From Streptomyces tsukubensis (GTDB taxonomy: Bacteria; Actinomycetota; Actinomycetes; Streptomycetales; Streptomycetaceae): DNA of 31,070 nt. A program made the position numbers and the translations under genes. The notes beneath the pieces are model-generated. The model was not told the origin of the DNA, made no database searches, and saw only the letters and a program-made list of their open reading frames with translations. Shown here piece by piece: positions 5,717-28,268 of this stretch (position 1 is its first letter; the number at the start of each line of letters is the position of its first letter). Location: NCBI RefSeq assembly GCF_003932715.1, contig NZ_CP020702.1, forward strand, positions 1 through 31,070. Direction: 5' to 3'.

Positions 5717-6109
5717 ATGAAGCAGGGGGAGAGCGGCGGCGGGCATCTGGTGGTCGTCGGAGTGGGTGCGGAGCGGCTGGGAGAAGCAGGGCCGGGGGTC
5801 GAGCAGCGGGCGGAAGCGGTGGCGGACGCGGTGTGCGAGCTGGTCGACGTGGTGGCGCCGGGGAGCTGGAGTGCGGGCGCGGTCGAGGACGCGGCCGACG
5901 CCATCGACCTCCTCGCCGAGGCCCTGGCGGCGATCGACCCGGAGGCCGCGCGCGCCCTCGCGGCGGTGCCGGCCGCCACCGCCGCACTGCGCCGCCGACT
6001 CGTGCCGGGGGCCGTCGAGGAGGCGCCCGAGGTGCCCGCGCCGCGCTCGGAGCGACCGCCGCGGCGAGGACTCGGACCCGGATGGAAGGGCGTACGGACC
6101 ACCGGCTGA
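5717..6109 (+). CDS. hypothetical helical protein, 130 aa
   Basis: Starts at ATG 5717 (MKQGESGGGHLVVVG); the frame is open back to 5615 but that would run through the hairpin arm. The middle is an Ala/Asp/Glu-rich helical segment (EAVADAVCELVDVVAPGSW, then AVEDAADAIDLLAEALAAIDPEAARALAAVPAA split by short turns). The tail is Pro/Arg-rich and ends GPGWKGV. It has no membrane segment or known motif and is not recognised. It is divergent from the replication-relaxation gene and may share its control region. Confidence 0.55.
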   Translation: MKQGESGGGHLVVVGVGAERLGEAGPGVEQRAEAVADAVCELVDVVAPGSWSAGAVEDAADAIDLLAEALAAIDPEAARALAAVPAATAALRRRLVPGAVEEAPEVPAPRSERPPRRGLGPGWKGVRTTG

Positions 6110-6350
6110 ACCCGTGCAACCGGTCCAACACCCGGTGGTCGACCAAACTCGTCGGACATTGCGGACTCTCCGCAGCTCACAGGCTTGCAAGTCCAACAGG
6201 GTGAGGCCGATCCTGCTCCAACTCAGGGGTATGAGGATGTGCGGGGAGCGGGGGCCGGCGGCCGGGGCGCGGCGGGTACCCGGGGTACCCGGTCGGATCA
6301 TCGTTCTCCCGTGGGGGACGGCTGTCCCCGACCGCGAGGATGCTGGAGAG
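6110..6350. promoter_or_regulatory. intergenic region with GGTACC dyad
   Basis: A 17-bp near-palindrome GGGTACCCGGGGTACCC (6276-6292) is a plausible operator for the downstream zinc-finger gene. A very short frame (ATG at 6340, Met-Leu-Glu-Arg-stop) overlaps the GTG proposed as the zinc-finger start, which might couple translation. Nothing else is recognised. Confidence 0.35.
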
Positions 6351-6704
6351 GTGACCAGCAAGGTGCGACGGTGCGGCTGCTGCCGGGCAGTGCTGCCGAA
6401 GGACGCGGGGCCCAACCGGCGGTACTGCGACGCGACGTGCCGGAGCAGGCACTGGCGGCGTGTCCAGCGCCGGGAGAACATCTTCCAGCGCGCGGTCCAG
6501 CAGGGGATCGAGATCCTCGCGGGCGGCGTCGACCGGTACGTCGAGGGCCGGTGCCCGGTCTGCGGGTGGAGCGTCTCCCTGCGCAAGCGGCGTGACTCGG
6601 TCTACTGCTCGCCGCGCTGCCGTACGAGGGCCTGGAGGCTCCGGGCCGGGCTCCGTGACGCTTCCGAACGCTCGTTGCCGGAGACGTCACCCGGTGACGC
6701 GTAG
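6351..6704 (+). CDS. double zinc-finger protein, 117 aa
   Basis: Starts at GTG 6351 after GGAGAG. It has two copies of a CxxC...YCxxxCRxRxWR finger: CGCC with YCDATCRSRHWRR (residues about 7-35) and CPVCGW with YCSPRCRTRAWRLR (about 69-100). A helical linker (NIFQRAVQQGIEILAGGVDRY) joins them. Such treble-clef-like fingers are common in small actinomycete plasmid proteins and probably bind DNA or protein. An upstream ATG at 6231 in the same frame is possible but lacks a ribosome-binding site. It lies just before the recombinase res-like region; its function is not known. Confidence 0.72.
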   Translation: MTSKVRRCGCCRAVLPKDAGPNRRYCDATCRSRHWRRVQRRENIFQRAVQQGIEILAGGVDRYVEGRCPVCGWSVSLRKRRDSVYCSPRCRTRAWRLRAGLRDASERSLPETSPGDA

Positions 6705-6737
6705 CCGTAACGATGGATCATGGGGAGCCGGAGCGGC

Positions 6738-6765
6738 TGTTACATAGGTGGTCGCTCATGTAACA
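6738..6765. promoter_or_regulatory. 28-bp recombinase-type site (res I candidate)
   Basis: The arms TGTTACAT (6738-6745) and ATGTAACA (6758-6765) are perfect 8-bp inverted repeats separated by 12 bp. The total of 28 bp equals the site I length of Tn3/gamma-delta type res sites. Two further inverted pairs with the related half-site TGTTTCAT follow before the recombinase gene. Confidence 0.6.
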
Positions 6766-6797
6766 CCCCGCCGAGCAACGGCGGCACTGGCCGTTTT

Positions 6798-6852
6798 CTG
6801 TTTCATAGGCTGTTTCAAATGGTCTGGCATCTGAAACAGACACATGAAACAG
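6798..6852. promoter_or_regulatory. nested recombinase half-sites (res II/III candidates)
   Basis: The outer pair CTGTTTCAT (6798-6806) and ATGAAACAG (6844-6852), and the inner pair CTGTTTCA (6810-6817) and TGAAACAG (6832-6839), are both perfect inverted repeats. The inner TGTTTCA/TGAAACA pair again spans 28 bp (6811-6838). Together with 6738-6765 this gives six TGTT(A/T)CA half-sites ending 8 bp before the recombinase start, so the sites could also autoregulate that gene. Confidence 0.65.
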
Positions 6853-6859
6853 TGATCGC

Positions 6860-7756
6860 GTGACCGACGACTTCCAGCGCGTTGAAGCGCACGACTGCCC
6901 CATGTCCACCTGCGCGGCCCCGGCGGGCTCGCCGTGCCGTACGACCAAGGGCCGGGTGGCTATCCAGTACCACACCGCCCGGTTCCGGCTCGTGCCCTCG
7001 CTGGCGAAGACGCTGAACGTCCCGGTGCCCGCCGTGCGCAAGCCGGGCACGGCCTGGGTGGAGCTGCCGCGCCCGGCCGGGGCCGGCGCCGAACCGGTCG
7101 GCCACGTCCGCATCGGGTACGCCCGTGCGTCCACCGCCCGCCAGTCGCTCGACTCCCAGCTCGACTCCCTCGCGGAGGCCGGTGTCACCCGGGTCTTCTC
7201 GGAGAAGGTCTCGACCCGCGTCACCTCGCGCCCGGAGCTGGAGAAGGCGGTCACCCTCGCCCGCGAGATCCGCGCCTCCGGCGTCGCGGTGACCCTCGTC
7301 GTGCACGAGCACAAGCGGCTCGGCCGCGGCATGGACCTCGCGGTGCTCGCCGAGGAGCTGCGCGCGGGCGACATCGGCCTGCAGTTCCTCACCGGCGACC
7401 TCCAGGGCAGCCACGACCCGGGTGGTGTCGTCTTCACCGTCCTCGCCGCGATGTCGGGCATGGAGCGCGAGTACATCCGCGACCGCACCCTGGAGGGACA
7501 CGAGTCGGCCCGCCTCCGGGGCAAGAGCATCGGCGGCGCGAGCGTCACCAACGACGACATGCTCGGCATGGCGCTGCATCTGCGGGACCAGGAGCTGAGC
7601 CTGCGCGAGATCGCGTCGCGGCTCGTCATCACCAAGGGCAGCAAGAAGGGCCAGCACCCTTCCGCGCCGACCGTCATGCGAATGCTGCGCGAGCACGACG
7701 ACCGGGTGGCCGCCACGAAGCCCACGGCGGCGCTGGAGGCCGCTGAGAGCCGCTGA
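6860..7756 (+). CDS. serine recombinase with N-terminal zinc-binding extension
   Basis: A 298-residue protein from GTG 6860. The resolvase catalytic domain starts near residue 83 (VRIGYARASTARQSLDSQL): the nucleophile is Ser91 and Arg89 is the conserved Arg of the YAR motif. HKRLGRGMDL carries the second catalytic Arg pair, AAMSGMEREYIRDRT is the start of helix E, and residues about 195-285 hold a C-terminal HTH (LSLREIASRLVI). The first 80 residues are unusual for a resolvase: a CysX4CysX7Cys...His pattern (C13, C18, C26, H38) followed by a linker, suggesting a zinc finger. The size and adjacent res-like repeats fit a resolvase, which keeps plasmids monomeric, or an invertase. Confidence 0.9.
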   Translation: MTDDFQRVEAHDCPMSTCAAPAGSPCRTTKGRVAIQYHTARFRLVPSLAKTLNVPVPAVRKPGTAWVELPRPAGAGAEPVGHVRIGYARASTARQSLDSQLDSLAEAGVTRVFSEKVSTRVTSRPELEKAVTLAREIRASGVAVTLVVHEHKRLGRGMDLAVLAEELRAGDIGLQFLTGDLQGSHDPGGVVFTVLAAMSGMEREYIRDRTLEGHESARLRGKSIGGASVTNDDMLGMALHLRDQELSLREIASRLVITKGSKKGQHPSAPTVMRMLREHDDRVAATKPTAALEAAESR

Positions 7757-7945
7757 GAGCACCACAGGGCACCAACGGGGCCCCGGAGCCGCCCACGGGC
7801 GCGCACGGGGCCCTTCCCGCGCTCCGGGACGGTCTCCGGTTCGTCAGGAACGATCCTGCGGGCGGAGACGGCCGTGGCAACGCGTGGATACCGGCGTAGC
7901 CACCCAGTAGCCACCACGGCGGCCGGGACGAACCGCACGGCAGCA

Positions 7946-8340
7946 GGCGGAAGCGAGTTAGTGCTCACTGATATCAGTAAGCCGCCGCCGCGCACTCGGC
8001 GCGCGGAGTTTCCTCGGCGACCGGGCACGGTCGGGTGGCGGGAGTTTCCGCCGACGGACGTGGCGAGCGGTCCGGCCCTCACTCGCCCGCAGGGAGCGGA
8101 AGCGAGTTAGTGCCAACTGGGCCCACTTTCGTGGCGGCCGTCGACGGGGCCGCGCCTGAGCCCGGTGGCCGCTGGTGGCCTTCGCCGGCCCCCAGGCCCC
8201 CGCTCCGGTCGGCATCCCCCGGCGCGGTCCGGCATCGTCCTGGCGACGGCCGTCCGCGCCGGAGGACACCGCCCCCTGGGGGACTCGGCTCGGCATCAGG
8301 GGGCGGCAGCGAGTTGTGGGTTACTGACCCCAGTAAGCCC
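7946..8340 (+). repeat. hairpin modules R1-R3 (GCGAGTTAGTGC type)
   Basis: Three related 19-mers at 7946-7964, 8096-8114 and 8302-8320 share the core AGCGAGTT(A/G)(G/T). Each is followed at once by a palindrome: ACTGATATCAGT after R1, an AACTGGGCCCACTT near-palindrome after R2, and TTACTG-ACCC-CAGTAA after R3. The DNA between copies is not conserved, and R1 is in a different frame from R2 and R3, so the repeat is a DNA or RNA element rather than a coding repeat. Confidence 0.65.
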
Positions 8341-8517
8341 GTGGACCGCGCGCACGGGTTGGTCCGTTCGTCTTCGCGCGCGCCCGCGATGGGGCGGTCC
8401 AGAAAGTCCAGAAACTCGACCGCCAGGACGGCGAGCACGACCAGGAGCACGACGACGTCGACGGTCCGGCCGCCGCTGGGGACACGACTTCGCACGGTCT
8501 CCCGCCCGGAGGGGGGT

Positions 8518-8536
8518 CCGTAGGGAAGTAGTCGGC
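8518..8536 (+). repeat. hairpin module R4 (GGGAAGTAGTCGGC)
   Basis: CCGTAGGGAAGTAGTCGGC at 8518-8536 is almost repeated at 8716-8734 (CCGTACAGAAGTAGTCGGC) and 9117-9135 (CCCCAGGGAAGTAGTCGGC). The common 12-mer GAAGTAGTCGGC is exact in the three copies. Each is preceded by a GAGGGG-containing stretch. Confidence 0.7.
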
Positions 8537-8609
8537 GTGCGACGTCGCCGGAGACCGTGCCGAACGTGCTGGTCGTAGGGCCGGGTGAGGCACGGCCGCG
8601 CGAGGGCTG

Positions 8610-8693
8610 GCGCGACCAGAGGCGCGACCTGAGACGGCACCAGAGGCGCGACCAGAACCGCGACCAGGAGCGCGACCAGAGGTGCGACTTCGT
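8610..8693 (+). repeat. 12-bp array A, seven units (GCGCGACCAGAG)
   Basis: Seven contiguous 12-mers: GCGCGACCAGAG, GCGCGACCTGAG, ACGGCACCAGAG, GCGCGACCAGAA, CCGCGACCAGGA, GCGCGACCAGAG and the decayed GTGCGACTTCGT. The total is exactly 84 bp, the same as arrays B and C. Module R5 follows 22 bp later. Confidence 0.85.
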
Positions 8694-8715
8694 ACGTCGA
8701 CCAGCCGGAGGGGTG

Positions 8716-8734
8716 CCGTACAGAAGTAGTCGGC
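8716..8734 (+). repeat. hairpin module R5
   Basis: A copy of the GAAGTAGTCGGC module, running into the palindrome CGGCGCGCCG. It lies between 12-bp arrays A and B. Confidence 0.65.
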
Positions 8735-8809
8735 GCGCCGGAGCACCGCCGCTGCCCCTTGACCACCCAGCTCAGCCCCACGAGAGAACCGCGGCCGCCG
8801 CCGCGTGGA

Positions 8810-8893
8810 GGCAAGTTGTACGGCAAGCCCGGAAGCTAGCTGTAGGGCAACTTGTACGGCCAGTTGTAGAGCCAGTTGTAGGGCAAGCCGGTG
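8810..8893 (+). repeat. 12-bp array B, seven units (GGCAAGTTGTAC)
   Basis: Seven 12-mers: GGCAAGTTGTAC, GGCAAGCCCGGA, AGCTAGCTGTAG, GGCAACTTGTAC, GGCCAGTTGTAG, AGCCAGTTGTAG and GGCAAGCCGGTG. The unit overlaps the core of the single hairpin modules (GCAAGTT) and shares the skeleton GCNAG with the repeats in the operon leaders, which suggests all belong to one family. It starts 200 bp after the start of array A. Confidence 0.85.
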
Positions 8894-9116
8894 AGCGAGG
8901 ACCAAGGTATCGTCACTCCGCTCCGATACCGGGGGCCCCGAAACCCGACGTGGCCACCGGCCCGAGCACCGCCAGGACCACGCCCCGCGCCGCGGCTGCT
9001 GTTCGCCGAGCGCGTCGAGGCAGAGCAGCTCCTGGACGACGTCGAGCACCAGGCTGTGGCCGACCACAAAGGCCGGCGGACCCTTGGGCCGGGCATCTCG
9101 CGGGAGCCAGAGGGGT

Positions 9117-9135
9117 CCCCAGGGAAGTAGTCGGC
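9117..9135 (+). repeat. hairpin module R6
   Basis: Third copy of the GAAGTAGTCGGC module, 80 bp before array C. It is preceded by GAGGGGTCCCC. Confidence 0.65.
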
Positions 9136-9214
9136 GTCCGCTGGCCCTCGCGGTGCACCCCTGGTCCTCCAGGTCAGAGCCGTGCTGCACCGGTATCCGC
9201 CCGCTTCCCGAAGA

Positions 9215-9298
9215 GGACCTGAAACGGGACCCGGTAGAGAACCCGAAACGGGACTCCAAACGGGACTCGCAACAGGACCCCAAACGGAACCCCGGGTG
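9215..9298 (+). repeat. 12-bp array C, seven units (GGACTCCAAACG)
   Basis: Seven 12-mers: GGACCTGAAACG, GGACCCGGTAGA, GAACCCGAAACG, GGACTCCAAACG, GGACTCGCAACA, GGACCCCAAACG and GAACCCCGGGTG; exactly 84 bp. In another phase the unit reads CCAAACGGGACT, which matches the leader unit GCAAGCGGGAAC at 8 of 12 positions by eye. Confidence 0.85.
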
Positions 9299-9389
9299 TC
9301 CACCGCCGTGCTCGGAGAGCCCGACCGTGGACACCCGCTGCTGCGCATCGACCGTCCCGTCCACCGCGCTCCGCGCTTCATGATCGAGA

Positions 9390-9438
9390 CGGTCACACCT
9401 CATGCATTACGAATGACCTCGGTTTCGTCCGTGACGAA
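9390..9438 (+). repeat. 49-bp inverted duplication, left copy
   Basis: Matches the reverse complement of 10503-10551 at 47 of 49 positions. It contains CATGCATTACGAATGACC and the dyad TTTCGTCCGTGACGAAA. In the right copy the same sequence is the promoter, 5' end and GTG start of the 9848-10510 gene. Here GTGACGAAAG leads rightwards into DNA with no protein-like frame. Confidence 0.9.
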
Positions 9439-9533
9439 AGACGGCGCGCATCGACCCCGTCCGCCACGCGCTGAAGGGGTCGTGGGCGCGCACCGCGTGC
9501 AGCTGCACGACGTGGTGCGTCGCCACCCGCACC

Positions 9534-9586
9534 GGGTGCGCTGCACCGTCCGCCGGCGGGTGCGCACCGGTCGGTGCAGCGCACCC
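9534..9586. repeat. long inverted repeat GGGTGCGCTGCACCG / CGGTGCAGCGCACCC
   Basis: The arms 9534-9548 and 9572-9586 are perfect 15-bp inverted repeats with a 23-nt loop that itself contains the palindrome GGTGCGCACC. More GGTGCGC/GCGCACC words lie on both sides (9490-9640), so this stretch could fold into a large branched structure or bind a dimeric regulator in tandem. Confidence 0.7.
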
Positions 9587-9660
9587 CCGCCAGGTGGTGC
9601 ACGACACCCAGCGCACCGGCAGCCCCCGGCCGGTGCGCACCCCGGGAGCGATGCTCACGG

Positions 9661-9757
9661 GATAACTTGCTCGACCGCCGTAGGACGGTCGTGCGGGACA
9701 ACTTGCTCGGCTCGGCCGGGCTCGCGGAAAGCTATGCTTCCGCACCAACTTGCTCGC
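9661..9757 (-). repeat. three inverted hairpin modules (AACTTGCTCG)
   Basis: AACTTGCTCG starts at 9664, 9700 and 9747. Read on the - strand each gives CGAGCAAGTT followed by a hairpin: CCCGTGAGC/GCTCCCGGG, CGACCG/CGGTCG and GCGGAAGC/GCTTTCCGC. GATAACTTGCTCGACC (9661-9676) and CCGCACCAACTTGCTC (9740-9755) recur exactly in inverted orientation at 11040-11055 and 10976-10991. Confidence 0.75.
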
Positions 9758-9832
9758 CGAGAACGACGTCGGGGGGACGCTGTCCGGCCGCGGATCGACG
9801 GTGCAGACCCTCGTCCGGCTTCTGTTCTGCAG

Positions 9833-9856
9833 GCGGCTGAGGGGTCCTCAACCGCG
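9833..9856 (-). terminator. hairpin at the 3' end of the 9848 gene
   Basis: GCGGCTGAGG and CCTCAACCGC pair with one mismatch around a short GGT loop, overlapping the stop codon of the - strand zinc-finger gene. This is typical of a short GC-rich terminator. Confidence 0.55.
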
Positions 9857-10510
9857 ATGCTTGCGAGCCTCCCGCTCCCGGCGGCGACGCTCTGCACGGG
9901 AGAGCGCAGGCTGCGCAACGGGAGCCGAGTAGGGCGCCAGCGTGAGCCCGGAACCGCGACGCAGCTCGTCCACGACGGCCTCGCAGGCACCCGCGAGCAT
10001 CGCCCTCTGGTCGGCGGTGAACCTCCCGGACTGCGCATCGCCCGCGAGGTACTGGAGGGCCTGGAACCACTCCTGCGCACCCTCCGGCAGGGTGTACGGC
10101 GCACCGCTCGCACGCGCCGCGGGGATGCGGCGCACCTCTCCCGGGCCGCGCCGTACGACGGTGCGGGTGACCGTCTCGGTGCGCTCGATGACCTCCCGGA
10201 CCGGTTCGGTGGTGCGCCCGCCGACGTCGACCGGACGGTCCGCGCGGGCCTGCGCCGTGCGCAGTTCGGAGGCGCGCTTGCGGTGCGAGTCCTTGCAGTA
10301 GCGCGGGGGCCGGCCGACGCCGGAGTAGTCGATCGGGTCGCCGCACCACTCGCACGTACGGCGCACCAGGCGGTCGTGCACGGTCGTCTTCACGCGCTCG
10401 GCGAGGACGTCGCCGAGCTGCTCCTGGTCGTCGTTCTCGGTCGTCGGCACTCGCACGCCGAGCATCTCGGCGAGTTCTTCATCGGTGTACGGCCGCTGCT
10501 GATTCGTCAC
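9848..10510 (-). CDS. zinc-finger plasmid protein, 220 aa
   Basis: Starts at GTG 10510 inside the right copy of the 49-bp inverted duplication. Residues about 50-85 hold a treble-clef-like finger (CEWCGDPIDYSGVGRPPRYC followed by KDSHRKRASELR), similar in layout to the double-finger protein at 6351-6704. The N-terminus (YTDEELAEMLGVRVP) looks like an HTH helix pair. The middle has a helical EVIERTETVTRTVVRR segment, and residues 140-190 (AQEWFQALQYLAG, then ADQRAMLAGACEAVVDELRRG) a compact helical domain. The basic tail is SRAERRRREREARKHRG. It is probably a DNA-binding regulator. The dyad TTTCGTCCGTGACGAAA spans its start codon and could be an autoregulatory site. Confidence 0.8.
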   Translation of the reverse strand: MTNQQRPYTDEELAEMLGVRVPTTENDDQEQLGDVLAERVKTTVHDRLVRRTCEWCGDPIDYSGVGRPPRYCKDSHRKRASELRTAQARADRPVDVGGRTTEPVREVIERTETVTRTVVRRGPGEVRRIPAARASGAPYTLPEGAQEWFQALQYLAGDAQSGRFTADQRAMLAGACEAVVDELRRGSGLTLAPYSAPVAQPALSRAERRRREREARKHRG

Positions 10511-10551
10511 GGACGAAACCTAGGTCATTCGTAATGCATGAGCTGTGACCG
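10503..10551 (-). repeat. 49-bp inverted duplication, right copy (5' end of the zinc-finger gene)
   Basis: The inverted counterpart of 9390-9438 (47/49 identical). It carries the GTG start of the 9848-10510 gene and the DNA just upstream, so it probably includes the ribosome-binding and regulatory site. The two copies point towards each other and enclose the gene. Confidence 0.9.
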
Positions 10552-10594
10552 GGTTGGCCTTGCCGTGGAATCGGCGCAGGTCAGCACGCCCGAT

Positions 10595-10612
10595 GCAAAA
10601 GTGCCAGAGGTG
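10595..10612 (+). repeat. 18-bp direct repeat GCAAAAGTGCCAGAGGTG, copy 1
   Basis: Identical to 10837-10854. GCAGGTCAGC lies upstream of both copies. On the - strand both encode His-Leu-Trp-His-Phe-Cys, but the flanking frames differ in quality, so a non-coding role is more likely. Confidence 0.7.
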
Positions 10613-10836
10613 CGCGGTCATCGAGGCGTCGTTCACCGGGGGCGCGCACGGTCCCCGGGTCGGGAGCGAGCGGCATGACATCTCTTGCAACTCCGCAACG
10701 CGCAGGTCAGCGGAGCCGCGCGGTAGGCCAAGGCAATGCACATGGTGTGCTTCGTGCAGCCGTTACGTCCGGGACGAATTGGCGTCTACCGGAAGAGCAG
10801 GTCAGCGGGCGGGGAGTCCGTGTGGCGGGCCGGAGA

Positions 10837-10854
10837 GCAAAAGTGCCAGAGGTG
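10837..10854 (+). repeat. 18-bp direct repeat GCAAAAGTGCCAGAGGTG, copy 2
   Basis: Second exact copy, 242 bp after the first. Confidence 0.7.
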
Positions 10855-10948
10855 TACGTGCGCGGGCGGCTGTCCGGCGGGGTGCTCCTGGTCGTCGTTG
10901 TCGACGGCGGGCCGGGGTGGGCGAGGCCCGATCAAGGAGGGCAGCAAG

Positions 10949-11257
10949 ATGGAGGCCGGGACACTCCCCGGCCAGGAGCAAGTTGGTGCGGGAGTCATAC
11001 TCCCGCGCGGAAGTATGACTCTCCCGCGTGCCCGACCGAGGTCGAGCAAGTTATCGGTGAAGACACTCTTCGTCGTCGGACCGGGGGCGGTCCGAGTCGT
11101 GGCGGGGTCGGCGGCCGGTGGGCTCGCGCCTACCCTGGGCACGAAGCGACCCCCGGCACTTACCCTGCCGGGGGTCGCTTCGGTGGTGGCGCCGGATCAG
11201 GGTCCGGCGATGAGCCAGAGGATCAGCACGGCGTCCAGGTCGCGGTCGTGGCGGTAG
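10949..11257 (+). CDS. doubtful ORF with a very good ribosome-binding site
   Basis: ATG 10949 is preceded at ideal spacing by AAGGAGG (10934-10940), the best Shine-Dalgarno in this region. It would give a 102-residue protein (MEAGTLPGQEQVGAGVILPR...). However, the frame runs through two hairpin modules and the strong terminator at 11142-11182 and overlaps the end of the convergent toxin-like gene. Only a short peptide, or none, is likely. It is listed because the start signal is striking. Confidence 0.15.
   Translation: MEAGTLPGQEQVGAGVILPRGSMTLPRARPRSSKLSVKTLFVVGPGAVRVVAGSAAGGLAPTLGTKRPPALTLPGVASVVAPDQGPAMSQRISTASRSRSWR
10976..11055 (+). repeat. two hairpin modules (GAGCAAGTT)
   Basis: GAGCAAGTTGGTGCGG (10976-10991) runs into the perfect hairpin GCGGGAGT-CAT-ACTCCCGC. 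GGTCGAGCAAGTTATC (11040-11055) is followed by GAAGA-CAC-TCTTC. Both 16-mers are exact inverted copies of 9740-9755 and 9661-9676. An additional dyad AGTCATACT/AGTATGACT links the two. Confidence 0.75.
11142..11182. terminator. strong terminator after the toxin-like gene
   Basis: A perfect 17-bp stem, CGAAGCGACCCCCGGCA with its reverse complement, around a 7-nt loop (CTTACCC). It lies 15 bp after the stop of the last gene of the - strand operon starting at 15656. Confidence 0.9.
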
Positions 11258-11472
11258 ACGACGGTGATCCCGCGTCCGCCGGTCTGCTCGGGGAGCAGGT
11301 CGATGGCGTACGACTCCGAGCGGGGGTCGGCGTCCGGCAGCCCGCGCGCGTGGTCGGGGGTGGGGTCGTCCTCCAGGGAGGCCCGCACCGACATGACGGC
11401 CGTCCGTTCGCTGACGGTGAGGTCGCCCCGCAGGATCTTCTCGGCGGCGTCGCTGTAGAACGCGTAGGTCAC
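11197..11472 (-). CDS. RelE/ParE-like toxin candidate, 91 aa
   Basis: Starts at GTG 11472, overlapping the stop of the upstream gene (GTGA). The layout is that of small RelE/ParE-fold proteins: an N-terminal helix (YSDAAEKILRGDLTVSERTAVMSVRASLEDDP), a polar middle (SESYAIDLLPE), then two C-terminal strands (GRGITVVYRHDRDLDAVLILWLIAGP). Toxins of this fold cleave mRNA on the ribosome or inhibit gyrase, but the catalytic residues vary too much to assign by eye. Pairing with the overlapping upstream gene supports a toxin-antitoxin module. The order (antitoxin first, coupled) is typical. Confidence 0.6.
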   Translation of the reverse strand: MTYAFYSDAAEKILRGDLTVSERTAVMSVRASLEDDPTPDHARGLPDADPRSESYAIDLLPEQTGGRGITVVYRHDRDLDAVLILWLIAGP

Positions 11473-11756
11473 CTGGCGTTCCTCTCGGCCATCTTCTGGC
11501 CCAGCTCGAAGGCGACGTCGTGGGTGGGGCGCATCAGGGCCGCCATCGCCTGCGGGTCGCACCGCAGCAGGACCCGGTGCCGGTACGCCTGGGTGATCTC
11601 GCGGACACGGGTGAGGTCGTCCAGGTCCGCGTCCGCCAGCTCCCTCTCGAACTTCTCGGAGTCGCCCGGGATGCCCCACACACTCAGGGCGTTGCGCAGT
11701 TCGGCGAGCGTGCGCATCGGCGGCGCGACGTCGTGGTGCTCGGGTTGTGCGGTCAC
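11469..11756 (-). CDS. DUF6247-like protein, probable antitoxin partner
   Basis: A 95-residue protein from GTG 11756 with an excellent AAGGAGGGG upstream. The sequence (MRTLAELRNALSVWGIPGD, then FERELADADLDDLTRVREITQAY, RVLLRCDPQAMAAL) resembles the actinomycete DUF6247 group, which I recall as short helical proteins often encoded just before a RelE-like gene. The downstream overlap with such a gene fits an antitoxin. The family assignment is from memory of its pattern. Confidence 0.6.
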   Translation of the reverse strand: MTAQPEHHDVAPPMRTLAELRNALSVWGIPGDSEKFERELADADLDDLTRVREITQAYRHRVLLRCDPQAMAALMRPTHDVAFELGQKMAERNAR

Positions 11757-20006: not shown

Positions 20007-20210
20007 TCAGTGCTCCTTGGTCGCGGGGGTCCGGGACTGGGTGATGCTCGGGGCGGGGCTGGGGTGGTTCGGGCTGGGAGTGGCCGTGTCGTCGCATCCG
20101 CCCGCGAGGTAGAGGCCCAGGGCCAGGCCCGCGACGGCGGCGACGACCGCCTTGTTCTTCGCCCACCAGCTCGGGGGCAGTGGCTCGCTCAGCACGTACT
20201 TGACGCCCAT
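20007..20210 (-). CDS. small single-span membrane protein, 67 aa
   Basis: Starts at ATG 20210. A basic N-terminus (SWWAKNK) precedes one hydrophobic segment (AVVAAVAGLALGLYLAGG), then Cys and a Ser/Pro/Thr-rich tail. The LAGGC end of the segment recalls a lipobox but lacks the usual residue at -3. Its place after traB suggests a spread or transfer helper. Confidence 0.7.
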   Translation of the reverse strand: MGVKYVLSEPLPPSWWAKNKAVVAAVAGLALGLYLAGGCDDTATPSPNHPSPAPSITQSRTPATKEH

Positions 20211-20439
20211 CGGGAGTCGTCCTCCGTCGAATCGGGTTTGTCAGGGTTTGGGACCTGGATCGGTCCCGGATGGCGAGTGCGTTGATGCAGGTCAGAAGGG
20301 GTGAGGCTCCTGGACGGGACCCGGCCCGACCTGGACAGGGCGCGTCCAGGTCGAGGGGGTCGCTGTCCGGGACGACGGCCACCCGGTCCGGGGTGATACC
20401 AGGACATACCGGGCGGCCGTCCGGGGTGAATCCGGGTTC

Positions 20440-22722
20440 TCAGGCCGTGAGGCCGTACTTCGACTGCACCGTGCGCAGCAGCGCCGCGAGGGGGAAGCCG
20501 TTGAGCGCGGACGTGCTGTCGGCCCAGGCGCGCTTCTTCTTCTCCTCGGCCTCGCGCACCACCAGGCGACCGAGCTTCTCGGGGGTGATCTCGATCCCGG
20601 CCGCCTTGAGCGCGTCGACCAGGACGCTGCCCGGGAGCCAGTCGACCTCGCCCGCGGCGTCGTCCTCCTTGGCCGCCTGGTCGTAGGCGTTGAAGACGTC
20701 GACCAGGACCGCGAGGACGTCGGCGTCGGCCTCGCCCTTCTCCCGGAGCTGGTCGGCGAGGGTCTTCGGTCCGTCCGGCAGAGTGCCGGCCGCGTCCCGC
20801 AGGTCGTACGCGCGCTTGCAGAGCAGCTCGACCTCGTCGTCGCTGTAGTAGTCGGCCCGGACCAGGGTCGGGTTGGACCCTTCGGCCCAGAGCAGACCGG
20901 CGCCGCGCATCTCGGGCTCGATGGTCTTCGCCGAGTACCCGGCCGCCGCGGCTCCCTTGCCGAGGATCGTGTCGGACGCCTCGGGGGTGGTGCACCGCAG
21001 CGCCCACCGGATGGACAGCAGGTCGCGCAGGCTGGTGTCGACCACGTCGGAGCCGGGCTTCTGGGTGGCGCAGAAGGTCACGATGCCCGCCGCGCGGCCC
21101 CGGGAGACCAGGTTGCGCAGGAGCTTGGTGATCTTCTTCCCGAACTCGTCGTCCGTCGTGTAGAACATCAACTCGTCCACCCACAGCAGCTTCTGGCGCA
21201 GCAGCGGGTATTTGTTCGCCAATTCCTCGGTGACCTTGCGCTTGCCCAGCTTCTTGAGCAGGGCATATCGCGCCTTCATGTCCGCGACGGCCGCCTTGAG
21301 CATCTCGTAAAACGCCTCGGGATCGGCGTCGCCCTCGAAGTACTCGCACAGCTCGGCGAACGGCTCCAGGTCGCCGCCGGCCTTTCCGTCCGCGAGCCAG
21401 AGAATGACGCGCGGGTCGAGGGCGGCGGCCAGCAGGATCACGTTGCCGGACGCGCTCTTACCCGCGCCGGGCTCGCCGCCGACCAGGCCGGAACGCTCGA
21501 CCACGGAGATGGAAATCGGCAGGCCGCGCACGTCGGGTCCGACCGCGATTCGGCCCCAGAAGTTGGTGGCGGCCTCCAGCGCGAGCAGCGGGCCCGGGTC
21601 CGCCTTCTCGGTGAACGGCAGTTGCTTGGCGACGTAGATTTCCAGGCGACCGGAGCGGGCGCCCTTCCCCTTCGTCTTCACCATGTTGACCTGCGCGTCA
21701 TCGACTCCGAGCGCCGAGGCGATTTCGGAAATGGCGCGCATTGCCTTCCTCGCGGGAATTCCCGGGGGCAGGTCAATAACCGCCGACCAGGCGCCGCGCG
21801 CGTCCAGCATCGGCATCTGGACCATGTGCAGCGACTCGTCCGAGCCGATCACCTTGGCGTGGCGGAACACCTCGTCCAGCATCGGGGCGCTCATCGGGTC
21901 GCCGTCGCCGAGGGAACGCCAGTCGGCGGACCAGTCGGTCTCCTCGGTGACCAGGTGGCGGCCCGCGAACGCACCGCCGCTGAAGGTGGCGAGCAGACCG
22001 GCGGACGCGCCGAACGCTCCGGCCTCCACGTAGCCGCCGGTGATCGCGGCCAGCGGGGGGCCGTACGCCGCGCCGGCGCGCAGGGCCCGCAGCTTCCGGC
22101 GGTAGCTCTTGGCCTTCTTGTGGGCAGCGACGGCCTGCATGGCGACCGTCTGGGTGCGGTCGGCCTCCCGGAGGGCGACCTCCTTCTTGTTCTTCATCAG
22201 GGCCGGGGTGAAGCGGGCGGTCTTGGCCGCACCGCGGGCCTCCTTCGCGGCGACGTACGCCTGGTGGGCAAGCGCCTGGGTCTGGATGCCCTCGAAGCCG
22301 GTGACCCAGTCCTGCACCCGGCGCGACCCGCGCTTGAACTGCGCGGCGTGGCCCCGGTCGGTGCGCTGGCGGCGGACCCAGCGGCGGTAGGCCCGCAGGC
22401 GGGAGCGGTACAGGACGCCGGAGTACATGGCCCAGCCCTCGGGCGTCTTGGCCCAGGCCGGGATGAGCGGGCGGTCGTCGAACGCGTCGAGGTCGAGGTC
22501 GGTCGGCTTCTCCAGCTCGGCGGGCGCCGGGGTGACCGTGCCCTCCAGGACCCGGCGGGCCGACTCGACCACGGCCGCGCGGTCGGTGGCCTCGGTCTTG
22601 CCACCCAAAGCGGGGGCGGCGTCGGCCGGGCTGCTGTCCGTGGCCGGCCCCGCGCCGTGGACGTAGGTGATGGTGGCCAGGTCCGTACGGTCCGGGTTCG
22701 GGGTGGTCGGCTGTTCCGTCAT
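20440..22722 (-). CDS. traB: FtsK/SpoIIIE-type conjugal DNA translocase (TraB)
   Basis: A 760-residue protein from ATG 22722 with AAGGAG upstream. The N-terminal 200 residues are charged and helical, with a hydrophobic pair near 215-250 (AYGPPLAAITGGYVEAGAFGAS, then LLATFSGGAFAG). The motor domain has Walker A GGEPGAGKS at about 413-421, Walker B KLLWVDELMFY near 511-521 and an ATQKPGSDVVDTSLRDLL block typical of FtsK/SpoIIIE. The C-terminus (ALNGFPLAALLRTVQSKYG) may be the DNA-reading winged helix. In Streptomyces this protein alone moves double-stranded plasmid DNA between hyphae after binding 8-bp repeats at clt. The GGGACGC(A/T) cluster at 30.2-30.8 kb is a candidate target. Confidence 0.9.
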   Translation of the reverse strand: MTEQPTTPNPDRTDLATITYVHGAGPATDSSPADAAPALGGKTEATDRAAVVESARRVLEGTVTPAPAELEKPTDLDLDAFDDRPLIPAWAKTPEGWAMYSGVLYRSRLRAYRRWVRRQRTDRGHAAQFKRGSRRVQDWVTGFEGIQTQALAHQAYVAAKEARGAAKTARFTPALMKNKKEVALREADRTQTVAMQAVAAHKKAKSYRRKLRALRAGAAYGPPLAAITGGYVEAGAFGASAGLLATFSGGAFAGRHLVTEETDWSADWRSLGDGDPMSAPMLDEVFRHAKVIGSDESLHMVQMPMLDARGAWSAVIDLPPGIPARKAMRAISEIASALGVDDAQVNMVKTKGKGARSGRLEIYVAKQLPFTEKADPGPLLALEAATNFWGRIAVGPDVRGLPISISVVERSGLVGGEPGAGKSASGNVILLAAALDPRVILWLADGKAGGDLEPFAELCEYFEGDADPEAFYEMLKAAVADMKARYALLKKLGKRKVTEELANKYPLLRQKLLWVDELMFYTTDDEFGKKITKLLRNLVSRGRAAGIVTFCATQKPGSDVVDTSLRDLLSIRWALRCTTPEASDTILGKGAAAAGYSAKTIEPEMRGAGLLWAEGSNPTLVRADYYSDDEVELLCKRAYDLRDAAGTLPDGPKTLADQLREKGEADADVLAVLVDVFNAYDQAAKEDDAAGEVDWLPGSVLVDALKAAGIEITPEKLGRLVVREAEEKKKRAWADSTSALNGFPLAALLRTVQSKYGLTA

Positions 22723-22746
22723 GCTGGTGCTTCTCCTTCGGGAGGA

Positions 22747-22793
22747 GCGGGGACCTGGCGGTCGCTGTAGGAGGTGGAACGCCAGGTCCCCGC
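22747..22793 (-). promoter_or_regulatory. hairpin in the traB leader
   Basis: GCGGGGACCTGGCG (22747-22760) and its perfect complement (22780-22793) flank a 19-nt loop. It lies between the zinc-protein gene and traB. On the mRNA the loop carries CCACCTCCT, an anti-Shine-Dalgarno-like sequence, ahead of the traB AAGGAG. It may attenuate or tune TraB production, which is toxic in excess in related plasmids. Confidence 0.6.
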
Positions 22794-22808
22794 GCTTTCG
22801 GGGGTGGG

Positions 22809-23192
22809 TCAGGCGGCGGCGGTGAAGCCGTCCGCGCACGGGGCGCAGGCTTTGAGCGAGGTGGCGATGCAGTACGGCTTGACCTCGCCGCACTCGGGGC
22901 AGGTCCTCCGGGCCCGCATCGCCGCCGCGAGGGAGGCGATCTGGCCGGGGGAGCGGGGCTTGGGCGGGGTCGCCCGGTCGATCGGGTAGAGGCGGGCGAA
23001 CCGCGGCACACCCGGCGTCGTCGTCTTGTTGCTGAACCACATGACCTGCGCGACTGCCGGGCCCCGGGGCCGGAGCCCCTTCGCCACGAGCTGGTCGCGG
23101 GTCGCCAGGCCCTCGGGGGCCAGCTTCCAGAGGTACGTCGGCACGTCGTGCCGCTCCCCCTCCGGGTCCCAGAGATCAGCGAGGCGACCCAT
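22809..23192 (-). CDS. RRQRL-motif-type zinc-binding protein
   Basis: A 127-residue protein from ATG 23192. It shows the pattern of the Streptomyces family with this label: VPTYLWKLAPEGLATRDQLVAKGLRP, then AQVMWFSN, LYPIDRATPPKP, and the zinc ribbon CPEC...CAPCADG at the C-terminus (about 96-119). The usual RRQL is TRDQL here. The family is regularly found beside traB in actinomycete conjugative elements; its role is unknown. Its N-terminal layout is shared with the 318-aa protein at 2941-3897. Confidence 0.85.
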   Translation of the reverse strand: MGRLADLWDPEGERHDVPTYLWKLAPEGLATRDQLVAKGLRPRGPAVAQVMWFSNKTTTPGVPRFARLYPIDRATPPKPRSPGQIASLAAAMRARRTCPECGEVKPYCIATSLKACAPCADGFTAAA

Positions 23193-27260: not shown

Positions 27261-28268
27261 ATGAGGGTACGAGATGTATCGGCCCCGGTGCCACATCGCC
27301 GGGAGAACAACACGGCTGCAACCCGGGCGCTCCGGGCAACATTGCTGGCCAGCGCTCTGCGGTACGCCGAGCGCGGGATGTACGTCCATCCGCTGCTGGT
27401 GGGCGCGAAGGAGCCGAGGTGGCTCGACTGGGAGGCGCGGGCGACCCGCGACCCCGAGGTCATCGAGCGCACCTGGGGCCGCGCCCCGTTCAACATCGGC
27501 GTCGCCTGCGGTCCGTCCGCTCTCGTCGCGGTCGACCTGGACGTCCCCCACGACGGTGAGGTGTCCGGTCTGGCCGACATTGTCGACGGCATGACGATGC
27601 TCGACTCTCTCGCCGCGCAGATCCCCGGCGCGCAGATCACTCCCACGCTGACCGTCCGTACGCCGAGCGGCGGACGTCACCTCGTCTACCGGGCTCCGGC
27701 CGGGGTCGGGGTGCGCAACACCGCCCGCACCATCGGGTGGTGCATCGACACCCGGGCCGCCGGTGGCTACATCGTCGGCATCGGCTCGCAGGTCGACGGG
27801 GTTCCGTACGAGCTGGAGGGCAGCGTCACCGATCCGGCGGTCCTGCCGGAGTGGCTACTGACCCTGATCACGGCCGCCCCTGAGCCACCCAAAGCCGGGG
27901 GAGCGCCGCGCCGGGCCGATGTGGTCGCCCGGCTGCGGGACCTGACCCGGCAGGGCACCCGCGAGGACCGGTGGGCGCACGGCATCCTGCGCAGCGAGTG
28001 TGACGAGCTGGCGGCGATGAAGCCCAACTCCGGCCGCAACAACCGGCTGAACCTCGCGGCGTACCGCGCGGGCCAGCTCGTCGCCGCCGGCCTCCTGGAC
28101 CAGGCCGTCGCCGAGGAGCACCTGACGGAGGCCGCGCAGGCGTCCGGGCTCGGCGAGAAGTCAGCGTTCGAGATCGAGAAGACGCTCCGCTCCGGCATGA
28201 CCGCTGGGCTGTCCCGGCCGCGCCGGATGGCGACCGCGCCCGCGCGCCGGATGGGCGGTGCTGCGTGA
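27261..28268 (+). CDS. bifunctional DNA primase/polymerase (prim-pol, AEP superfamily)
   Basis: A 335-residue protein from ATG 27261. The prim-pol N-terminal domain includes ALRYAERGMYVHPL (31-44), EPRWLDWEARATRDPEVI, NIGVACGPSALVAVDLDVP with metal-binding Asp92 and Asp94, TPSGGRHLVYR with His140, and CIDTRAAGGYIVGIGS with Asp163. Residues 210-320 (the AAPEPPKAGG linker, then GREDRW-like EDRWAHGILRSECDELA, and NRLNLAAYRAGQLVAAGLL) are a helical domain common to plasmid prim-pols. It synthesises primers for plasmid replication together with the helicase-like ATPase encoded two genes downstream. Its stop overlaps the next GTG (GTGA). Confidence 0.9.
   Translation: MRVRDVSAPVPHRRENNTAATRALRATLLASALRYAERGMYVHPLLVGAKEPRWLDWEARATRDPEVIERTWGRAPFNIGVACGPSALVAVDLDVPHDGEVSGLADIVDGMTMLDSLAAQIPGAQITPTLTVRTPSGGRHLVYRAPAGVGVRNTARTIGWCIDTRAAGGYIVGIGSQVDGVPYELEGSVTDPAVLPEWLLTLITAAPEPPKAGGAPRRADVVARLRDLTRQGTREDRWAHGILRSECDELAAMKPNSGRNNRLNLAAYRAGQLVAAGLLDQAVAEEHLTEAAQASGLGEKSAFEIEKTLRSGMTAGLSRPRRMATAPARRMGGAA

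Follow-up and report, generated by a model that had tools for sequence, protein, structure and literature searches.

To our knowledge, the mobility of Streptomyces plasmids and chromosome ends is poorly understood, and sites recognised by TraB DNA translocases have been described for few plasmids. The pWTY27 paper presents clt as the cis site of transfer, where the FtsK-like TraA binds inverted as well as direct repeats. It places the minimal clt of pIJ101, approximately 54 bp long, close to korB, and describes there three 5-bp repeats and an inverted repeat that is essential; the clt of pWTY27 is given as four TGACACC repeats under a 53-bp footprint. According to the introduction of a further study, TraB hexamers form at clt, on repeats of 8 bp (PMC4170104). 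The subject here is a 31,070-bp plasmid of Streptomyces tsukubensis NRRL 18488, NZ_CP029158.1 (the window, meaning the whole stretch of DNA analysed), which carries three modules, each composed of a leader and a downstream array of 12-bp direct repeats. No published description of such modules was found in a literature search that had subscription papers on clt outside its scope. A first-pass annotation of the sequence had listed binding arrays for DNA-binding proteins among the possible functions, and this option is favoured here in a particular form: the modules are tentatively read as clt-like loading sites for TraB DNA translocases, with one class of array per TraB specificity.

Architecture and recurrence of the leader-plus-array module

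The modules of the window comprise the following features:

8485..8541, + strand: leader of module 1, with CGACTTC at 8485-8491 and the core GAAGTAGTCGGCG at 8525-8537
8610..8693, + strand: array 1, 7 x 12 bp, class a, consensus GCGCGACCAGAG
8685..8735, + strand: leader of module 2, with CGACTTC overlapping the last unit of array 1 and the core GAAGTAGTCGGCG at 8723-8735
8755..8764, + strand: CCCCTTGACC element of module 2
8768..8775, + strand: CAGCTCAG in module 2, CTGACCTG-like with 1 mismatch, in reverse orientation
8810..8893, + strand: array 2, 7 x 12 bp, class b, consensus GGCAAGTTGTAG
9105..9140, + strand: leader of module 3, with the core GAAGTAGTCGGCG at 9124-9136, CTTC arm absent
9170..9177, + strand: CAGGTCAG element of module 3, the exact reverse complement of CTGACCTG, scored on the near-identical copy L108-2305
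9215..9298, + strand: array 3, 7 x 12 bp, class c, consensus GGACCCGAAACG
9293..9337, no strand: inverted repeat that immediately follows array 3, with arms at 9293-9313 and 9317-9337

The three arrays stand exactly where the first-pass annotation had placed them, at 84 bp each (7 x 12), and their periodicity lies far beyond shuffle chance. The best lag-12 match counts per 72 positions were 52, 44 and 47 for arrays 1, 2 and 3, each exceeding every one of 1,000 dinucleotide shuffles of positions 7757-9847, in which the region-wide maximum was 41. Tandem Repeats Finder likewise assigned a period of 12 to all three, with 6.7, 3.7 and 4.4 copies, respectively; the latter two counts indicate that arrays 2 and 3 are imperfect, with divergent outer units. 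Mean pairwise unit identity was 0.70, 0.63 and 0.64 for arrays 1, 2 and 3. The skeleton that all units had been said to share is loosely borne out, the classes aligning by eye as G-S-R-A-C-Y-N-G.

The leader, the unit classes and the subterminal positions described below are features beyond those of the first-pass annotation. Upstream of each window array lies a 32-nt direct repeat (8510, 8708 and 9109), within which the core GAAGTAGTCGGCG starts at 8525, 8723 and 9124; the arrays begin 85, 87 and 91 bp after the core start, and the periodic stretch starts 59-102 bp after it in 30 strong Streptomycetaceae cases. Modules can abut, the leader of module 2 overlapping the final unit of array 1, and CTTC...GAAG inverted arms are missing in module 3. 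A non-redundant set of 53 modules was obtained from 81 at 72% ungapped identity, with L001, L160 and loci from L194 on excluded and with window modules 1 and 3 represented by near-identical L108 copies. In this set, CCCTTGAC is found between leader and array in 36 of 53 modules with at most one mismatch (1.7 expected; reverse complement in 1 of 53), and CTGACCTG, on either strand and with the same tolerance, also in 36 of 53 (2.5 expected). For the window modules, the CTGACCTGC element is exact in module 3, has one mismatch in module 2 and two in the L108 copy of module 1.

The two parts are mutually predictive, as scans for either one recover its partner. In a genome scan for AGRGAAGTAGTCGGCG, with all figures being among the matches listed, a strong 12-bp array lay just downstream of 30 of 39 sites in Streptomycetaceae, compared with 2 of 110 sites outside this family (other prokaryotes 2 of 85, both Alistipes and at threshold; viral 0 of 25). 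In the reverse test, a class b array query of 199 Streptomyces genomes found nine places in eight genomes, with the leader upstream at eight of the nine (two of these eight through a one-base leader variant and one via a fused array). A first leader listing had a strong array at 18 of 20 sites, and similar plasmids bear one to three modules. Leaders without an array also exist: that at L005 3405 retains a remnant, whereas none is present at L008 3143 or at either leader of L316. An exact match to an 18-base leader was present in 7 of 295 Streptomyces genomes, and the module is thus accessory; one class b module query gave no match in phage records. The recurrence of the leader-plus-array unit across Streptomycetaceae upholds the earlier argument that a fixed period and copy number with changing sequence is hard to explain by simple slippage.

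Seven is the modal copy number, found in 34 of the 53 non-redundant arrays, with eight units in nine, six in four, five in four and four in two; counting used the rotation with the most units, in which window array 2, with its divergent outer units, scores five. The 12-bp spacing is unchanged in all arrays listed. The claim of exactly seven units stands as a mode and not as a law, since one genome carries two modules with the same leader and 3 and 5 units. The arrays do not behave as a neutral minisatellite, with freely drifting copy number and no conserved flank, given the seven-unit mode and the conserved leader, even though the 3- and 5-unit versions exist. Protein-coding arrays are thought unlikely by inspection: leader-to-array distances are not multiples of 3, and in class b one forward frame has a stop in each TAG unit, the other frames being open. 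Open reading frames of 221 and 360 aa run across the window arrays. Readings as tRNA-like or rRNA-antisense elements, judged by eye, were likewise set aside.

Recurring unit classes are a (GCGCGACCAGAG), b (GGCAA(C/G)TTGTAG), c (GGACCCGAAACG), d (GGCGCCTCGTAG) and g (GGTGACACGGG), plus rarer ones. Among modules above the array threshold, none of 19 same-locus pairs shares a class. This exclusivity has a P of 0.0004 when all modules are permuted, but the version to trust is the stricter one confined to multi-module loci, with a P of 0.02 (0.035 without L003); L001, L160, L108, L163, L173, L156 and L194-L313 were excluded from the all-module permutation. Over longer distances, same-class modules occur 300 kb apart within one genome (L159, L164). 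Leaders and arrays are shuffled: no same-locus pair is closer in leader sequence than the two modules of L008, yet their array classes differ. The minus-strand module of L028 is a natural two-class chimera, in which a class d array is fused in phase to a class b array to give 13 units. At L314 8370-8457, seven identical GGCCCGACCACG units with no recognised leader follow a class a module by approximately 200 bp. A search for 12-bp-spaced GCGACC returned 16 of 199 genomes, whereas the reversed pattern returned 4; many of the hits are hexamer repeats, and G175 resembles a class a array.

A possible role in conjugative transfer

As a transfer locus, each module would be clt-like, combining the conserved leader, TTGACC and CTGACCTG elements and about seven direct repeats, with the array serving as the recognition address for one TraB specificity class. 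TraB is a hexameric translocase of the FtsK kind, by which double-stranded DNA passes from one Streptomyces mycelium to another; here its C-terminal winged helix would bind the repeats, the hexamer would assemble and the molecule would be pumped out. A plasmid with several array classes might be movable by several TraB types, whether its own or from co-resident elements, and a linear replicon whose subterminal arrays point inward could be moved starting at its end. What the sequences show is the architecture of the modules, their recurrence, the pattern of classes and the positions; recognition by TraB, mobilisation in trans and the direction of movement are what we infer. A bolder and rather doubtful version is a swappable transfer-address system, with one leader and seven-unit class addresses each read by a different TraB family. 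If true, replicons would collect one address of each kind and be carried by many different conjugative elements; among them would be replicons that lack a transfer gene, as well as the ends of large linear plasmids, and the 7 x 12 = 84 bp of an array, or eight helical turns, would be an optimised landing pad for a hexameric pump. Two small module-bearing plasmids showed no FtsK/TraB match in the proteins scanned (8 of 11 for L189 and 8 of 12 for L190).

The modules are noncoding loci with an inverted repeat and multiple direct repeats, the features by which clt is recognised (arms absent in module 3), and the cores of some unit classes resemble repeats at transfer loci. The class b core GCAA[C/G] was counted 34 times in seven pIJ101-type stretches against 4.1 expected, with classes a, c, d and g at background; this count is selected, as the stretches were chosen at the TGACCTG site beside repeats and each plasmid has 3-8 such sites, of which the repeat-side one was scored (three of the stretches are close relatives, and L404 was excluded). 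TGACAC, the core of class g, matches the TGACACC repeats that were footprinted in the pWTY27 clt and occurs 17 times in three pWTY27-type loci (0.14 expected); with 12-bp spacing it is present in 13 of 246 genomes, compared with none for the reversed pattern. Class c arrays matching GACCCGGA are found in L028 (6 sites) and L011 (4-5 sites). L402 carries both a pIJ101-type TraB and a class b module, with the exact leader and about six units.

The CTGACCTGC element is likewise found at transfer loci. In pIJ101 it lies in the korA-korB interval (taking 6031-6756 to be korA and 6966-7208 to be korB), together with an inverted repeat and three G[C/A]AAC-type repeats, fitting the published 54-bp clt. 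Behind korA, the interval reads CCGGTTG...CAACCGG, then TCTGACCTGC, then GTTGC, GTTGC and GTTTC, and this order of inverted element, TTGACC, CTGACCTG and direct repeats resembles that of the modules. Loci with other pIJ101-type translocases have one TGACCTGCG site each among GCAAC or GCAAG repeats (L401, L402 and L403) or have TGACCTGCG beside GGCAGGTT repeats (L404), the site beside repeats having been taken in each, and CTGACCTGC stands beside repeats adjoining traB genes in L339, L340, L341 and L347-L349. The window plasmid contains six copies (10576, 10702, 10797, 19255, 20287 and 30419) where the genome-wide frequency, 181 in 8.02 Mb, predicts about 0.7, and module-bearing plasmid stretches contain 22 against 3.9 expected. 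Outside modules, the surroundings of CTGACCTGC are repeat-rich, 10 of 34 sites exceeding the control 95th percentile (one of the 34, L007 4177, falls in a module missed by the mask). A record labelled as a Pseudomonas sp. SK2 plasmid (NZ_CP061945.1) has the pIJ101 translocase at 99.8% identity and is perhaps mislabelled or vector-derived.

The window also encodes a TraB-like protein of its own, with a repeat cluster behind the gene:

20200..20442, - strand: candidate own clt immediately behind the TraB-like gene, in which 7 GACCCGGA-like sites, each with one mismatch, surround CTGACCTGC (20287)
20440..23040, - strand: FtsK/SpoIIIE-family DNA translocase, TraB-like, candidate transfer protein

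The translocase is 65.5% identical, over 82% of its length, to its counterpart in NC_007431.1 (S. venezuelae), which we take to be pSVH1, with the repeat GACCCGGA. The 243 bp downstream of the gene hold seven one-mismatch GACCCGGA sites against 0.42 expected from permuted motifs (P 0.004), forming the densest such cluster of the window. Because this GACCCGGA-like cluster lies with CTGACCTGC behind the TraB-like gene, the plasmid probably has a clt of its own at 20200-20442.

Besides the selected class b count, several observations weigh against TraB recognition of the modules. The window arrays do not match the predicted repeat of the plasmid's own TraB, the closest being array 3 with one GACCCGGA site (P 0.16), and the TraB-like gene is 11 kb from the arrays, whereas known clt loci adjoin traB. 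No traB adjacency was seen among the annotated module surroundings read, the nearest annotated transfer genes being 3-4 kb off, and for this reason the modules are not filed as clt. Known TraB repeats compared with 57 arrays gave P values of 0.15, 0.07 and 0.036 from permuted motifs, the motifs having been picked after looking, and no TraB was found for classes a and d. Repeats of known clt loci are irregularly spaced (7-19 bp in pWTY27), and pIJ101 has no 12-bp array. Among 13 distinct loci with 12-bp-spaced TGACAC, one is traB-linked and the rest look like coding or generic repeats. Nor does CTGACCTGC prove a transfer function, because it is weakly enriched at traB (8 of 30 loci, with 8 hits where 3.3 are expected), is missing in those pWTY27-type clts that were read and is widespread in genomes: of 392 Streptomyces genomes, 317 contain CTGACCTGCGGNTTT and 4 the reversed pattern, and the motif is not clt-specific, with some of 29 loci read lying at gene 3' ends, one at a tRNA-Lys terminator and one at an oriC-like site. 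One such 3' end belongs to a gene ending, by eye, like a TrmA/RlmD methyltransferase. Finally, two modules lie directly upstream of parA (L009 and L189), which suits a centromere.

Genomic setting and alternative functions

The parA-linked modules bear on the centromere option of the first-pass annotation. As partition sites, the arrays would be covered by a ribbon-helix-helix (RHH) or helix-turn-helix protein that links the plasmid to ParA. At 10.5 bp per turn, seven steps of 12 bp amount to eight turns, and a set of seven dimers would thus wind once round the helix. The constant 12-bp spacing and the presence of ParA in the window agree with this. However, 7 kb separate ParA (951-1781) from the arrays (8610-9298) in the window, parA adjacency is limited to L009 and L189 among the annotated loci read, and L190, a 14.3-kb module plasmid, gave no ParA match in the 8 of 12 proteins scanned. 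A single centromere protein would also not need several unrelated unit classes per plasmid. Partition is therefore possible in the two parA-linked cases but not general, fitting neither the window nor L190, and as an explanation for the modules it is unlikely; if it were their function, they would constitute an unusually regular centromere family.

Modules occur on differing backbones, which include a MobA-type relaxase with a weak Rep_1 match (L190), ParA with GntR (L189), MobF (L007 and L315), MobC (L004 and L006) and, in the window, Prim-Pol with ParA. Clustering of the gene neighbourhoods identified no family present at every module locus; the biggest clusters span 11 loci and include antisense frames. 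Such independence of the plasmid backbone, together with the several classes per replicon, would suit decoy arrays bound by host regulators or nucleoid proteins and unrelated to transfer, but no candidate protein was found, and decoys would leave the shared leader and the clt-like element unexplained; this option appears improbable.

Many modules are subterminal. In a plasmid collection, one class b module query matched 31 records, 26 of them at most 5 kb from the record end, the records not being independent lineages and two of the 31 being circular. Of the 21 records of at least 100 kb, 17 have the module within 5 kb of an end, pointing inward in 15 of them; for six of these 17 a linear topology was read. 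The subterminal genes of pFRL5, pSCL3 and an S. longwoodensis plasmid are arranged alike, and on a 7.72 Mb contig a module lies 2.4 kb from both ends (two records equated by equal position). A replication role, with the arrays as iterons or as a secondary origin to which Rep proteins bind, would have a precedent in Streptomyces theta plasmids, which use noncoding iterons beside rep (PMC3583192). Yet module plasmids differ in replication genes (the window has Prim-Pol and L190 a weak match to Rep_1), modules stand near the ends of a chromosome-sized contig and the window Prim-Pol (27261-28268) is not beside the arrays (8610-9298), making this the least probable of the readings considered.

The first-pass annotation had also raised a structured noncoding transcript. 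Such a small RNA would have a folded leader, seven 12-nt binding sites acting as a sponge or multivalent antisense, and a terminating hairpin after the array. The units share one orientation relative to the leader in the modules compared, several modules lie between convergent genes (as called by our own gene caller), and hairpins follow arrays 2 and 3 and several telomere-type arrays. An alignment of a 12-sequence telomere-type subgroup yields a consensus fold with a few stems, and the best leader stems are cognate-favoured, with z of -3.1 and -2.6 among 253 window pairs, covariation being marginal after 253 comparisons. Across 45 leaders, however, no consensus fold was obtained; Rfam gave no match at threshold for 6700-11500, the single sub-threshold hit (HIV_PBS, E 0.86) lying outside the arrays; no promoter was recognised by eye upstream of the leaders, and modules can abut directly. 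The transcript thus finds little support and is quite unlikely, if somewhat less so than decoys.

Other features of the region were also recorded. The serine recombinase noted beside the arrays in the window is likewise a neighbour of modules in L003, L007 and L315 but not in most other annotated loci read. Just downstream of the recombinase are three 43-bp palindrome-bearing copies (7941-7983, 8090-8132 and 8297-8339), possibly its res-like sites. A 49-bp inverted repeat, 96% complementary (9390-9438 and 10503-10551), flanks a 220-aa zinc-finger-like gene in the manner of a cassette boundary. Five dispersed AACTTGCTCG/GAGCAAGTT sites, near the class b core in sequence, occur in 1.4 kb (9663, 9699, 9746, 10978 and 11046), and an exact 18-nt repeat, GCAAAAGTGCCAGAGGTG, is present at 10595-10612 and 10837-10854, with related copies in L003.

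Relation to known transfer and partition sites

With a conserved leader and class-specific arrays, a recurring module would supply candidate transfer addresses for direct testing on dozens of plasmids, and the transfer reading, if true, would predict the elements by which a given replicon can be mobilised. FtsK-family translocases are known to recognise short oriented motifs, the FtsK KOPS and SpoIIIE SRS, which are dispersed over chromosomes. The modules resemble these in having short oriented motifs, but are clustered seven-unit arrays and not chromosome-dispersed. The iterons of pWTY27, pFP1 and pFP11 are also noncoding repeats, bound by a plasmid protein; these theta-plasmid iterons adjoin rep, whereas the window modules do not. 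Closer in geometry are centromeric arrays (RHH type-I parS, ParR parC and TubR tubC), in which short direct repeats have a fixed spacing near one helical turn and a unit sequence that is not conserved between systems; the modules differ from them in having no constant partner operon, a conserved leader and several unit classes per plasmid.

The clt loci of pIJ101, pWTY27, pSVH1 and pJV1, like the modules, are noncoding and combine an inverted element with direct repeats. The modules depart from them in their regular 12-bp spacing, modal 7 copies, GAAGTAGTCGGCG leader, several classes per replicon and lack of traB adjacency, and pWTY27-type clts differ in turn by being without CTGACCTGC. The CTGACCTG element of the modules is also seen in the pIJ101-type loci read, and the cores of module classes b, c and g resemble pIJ101-, pSVH1- and pWTY27-type repeats, respectively.
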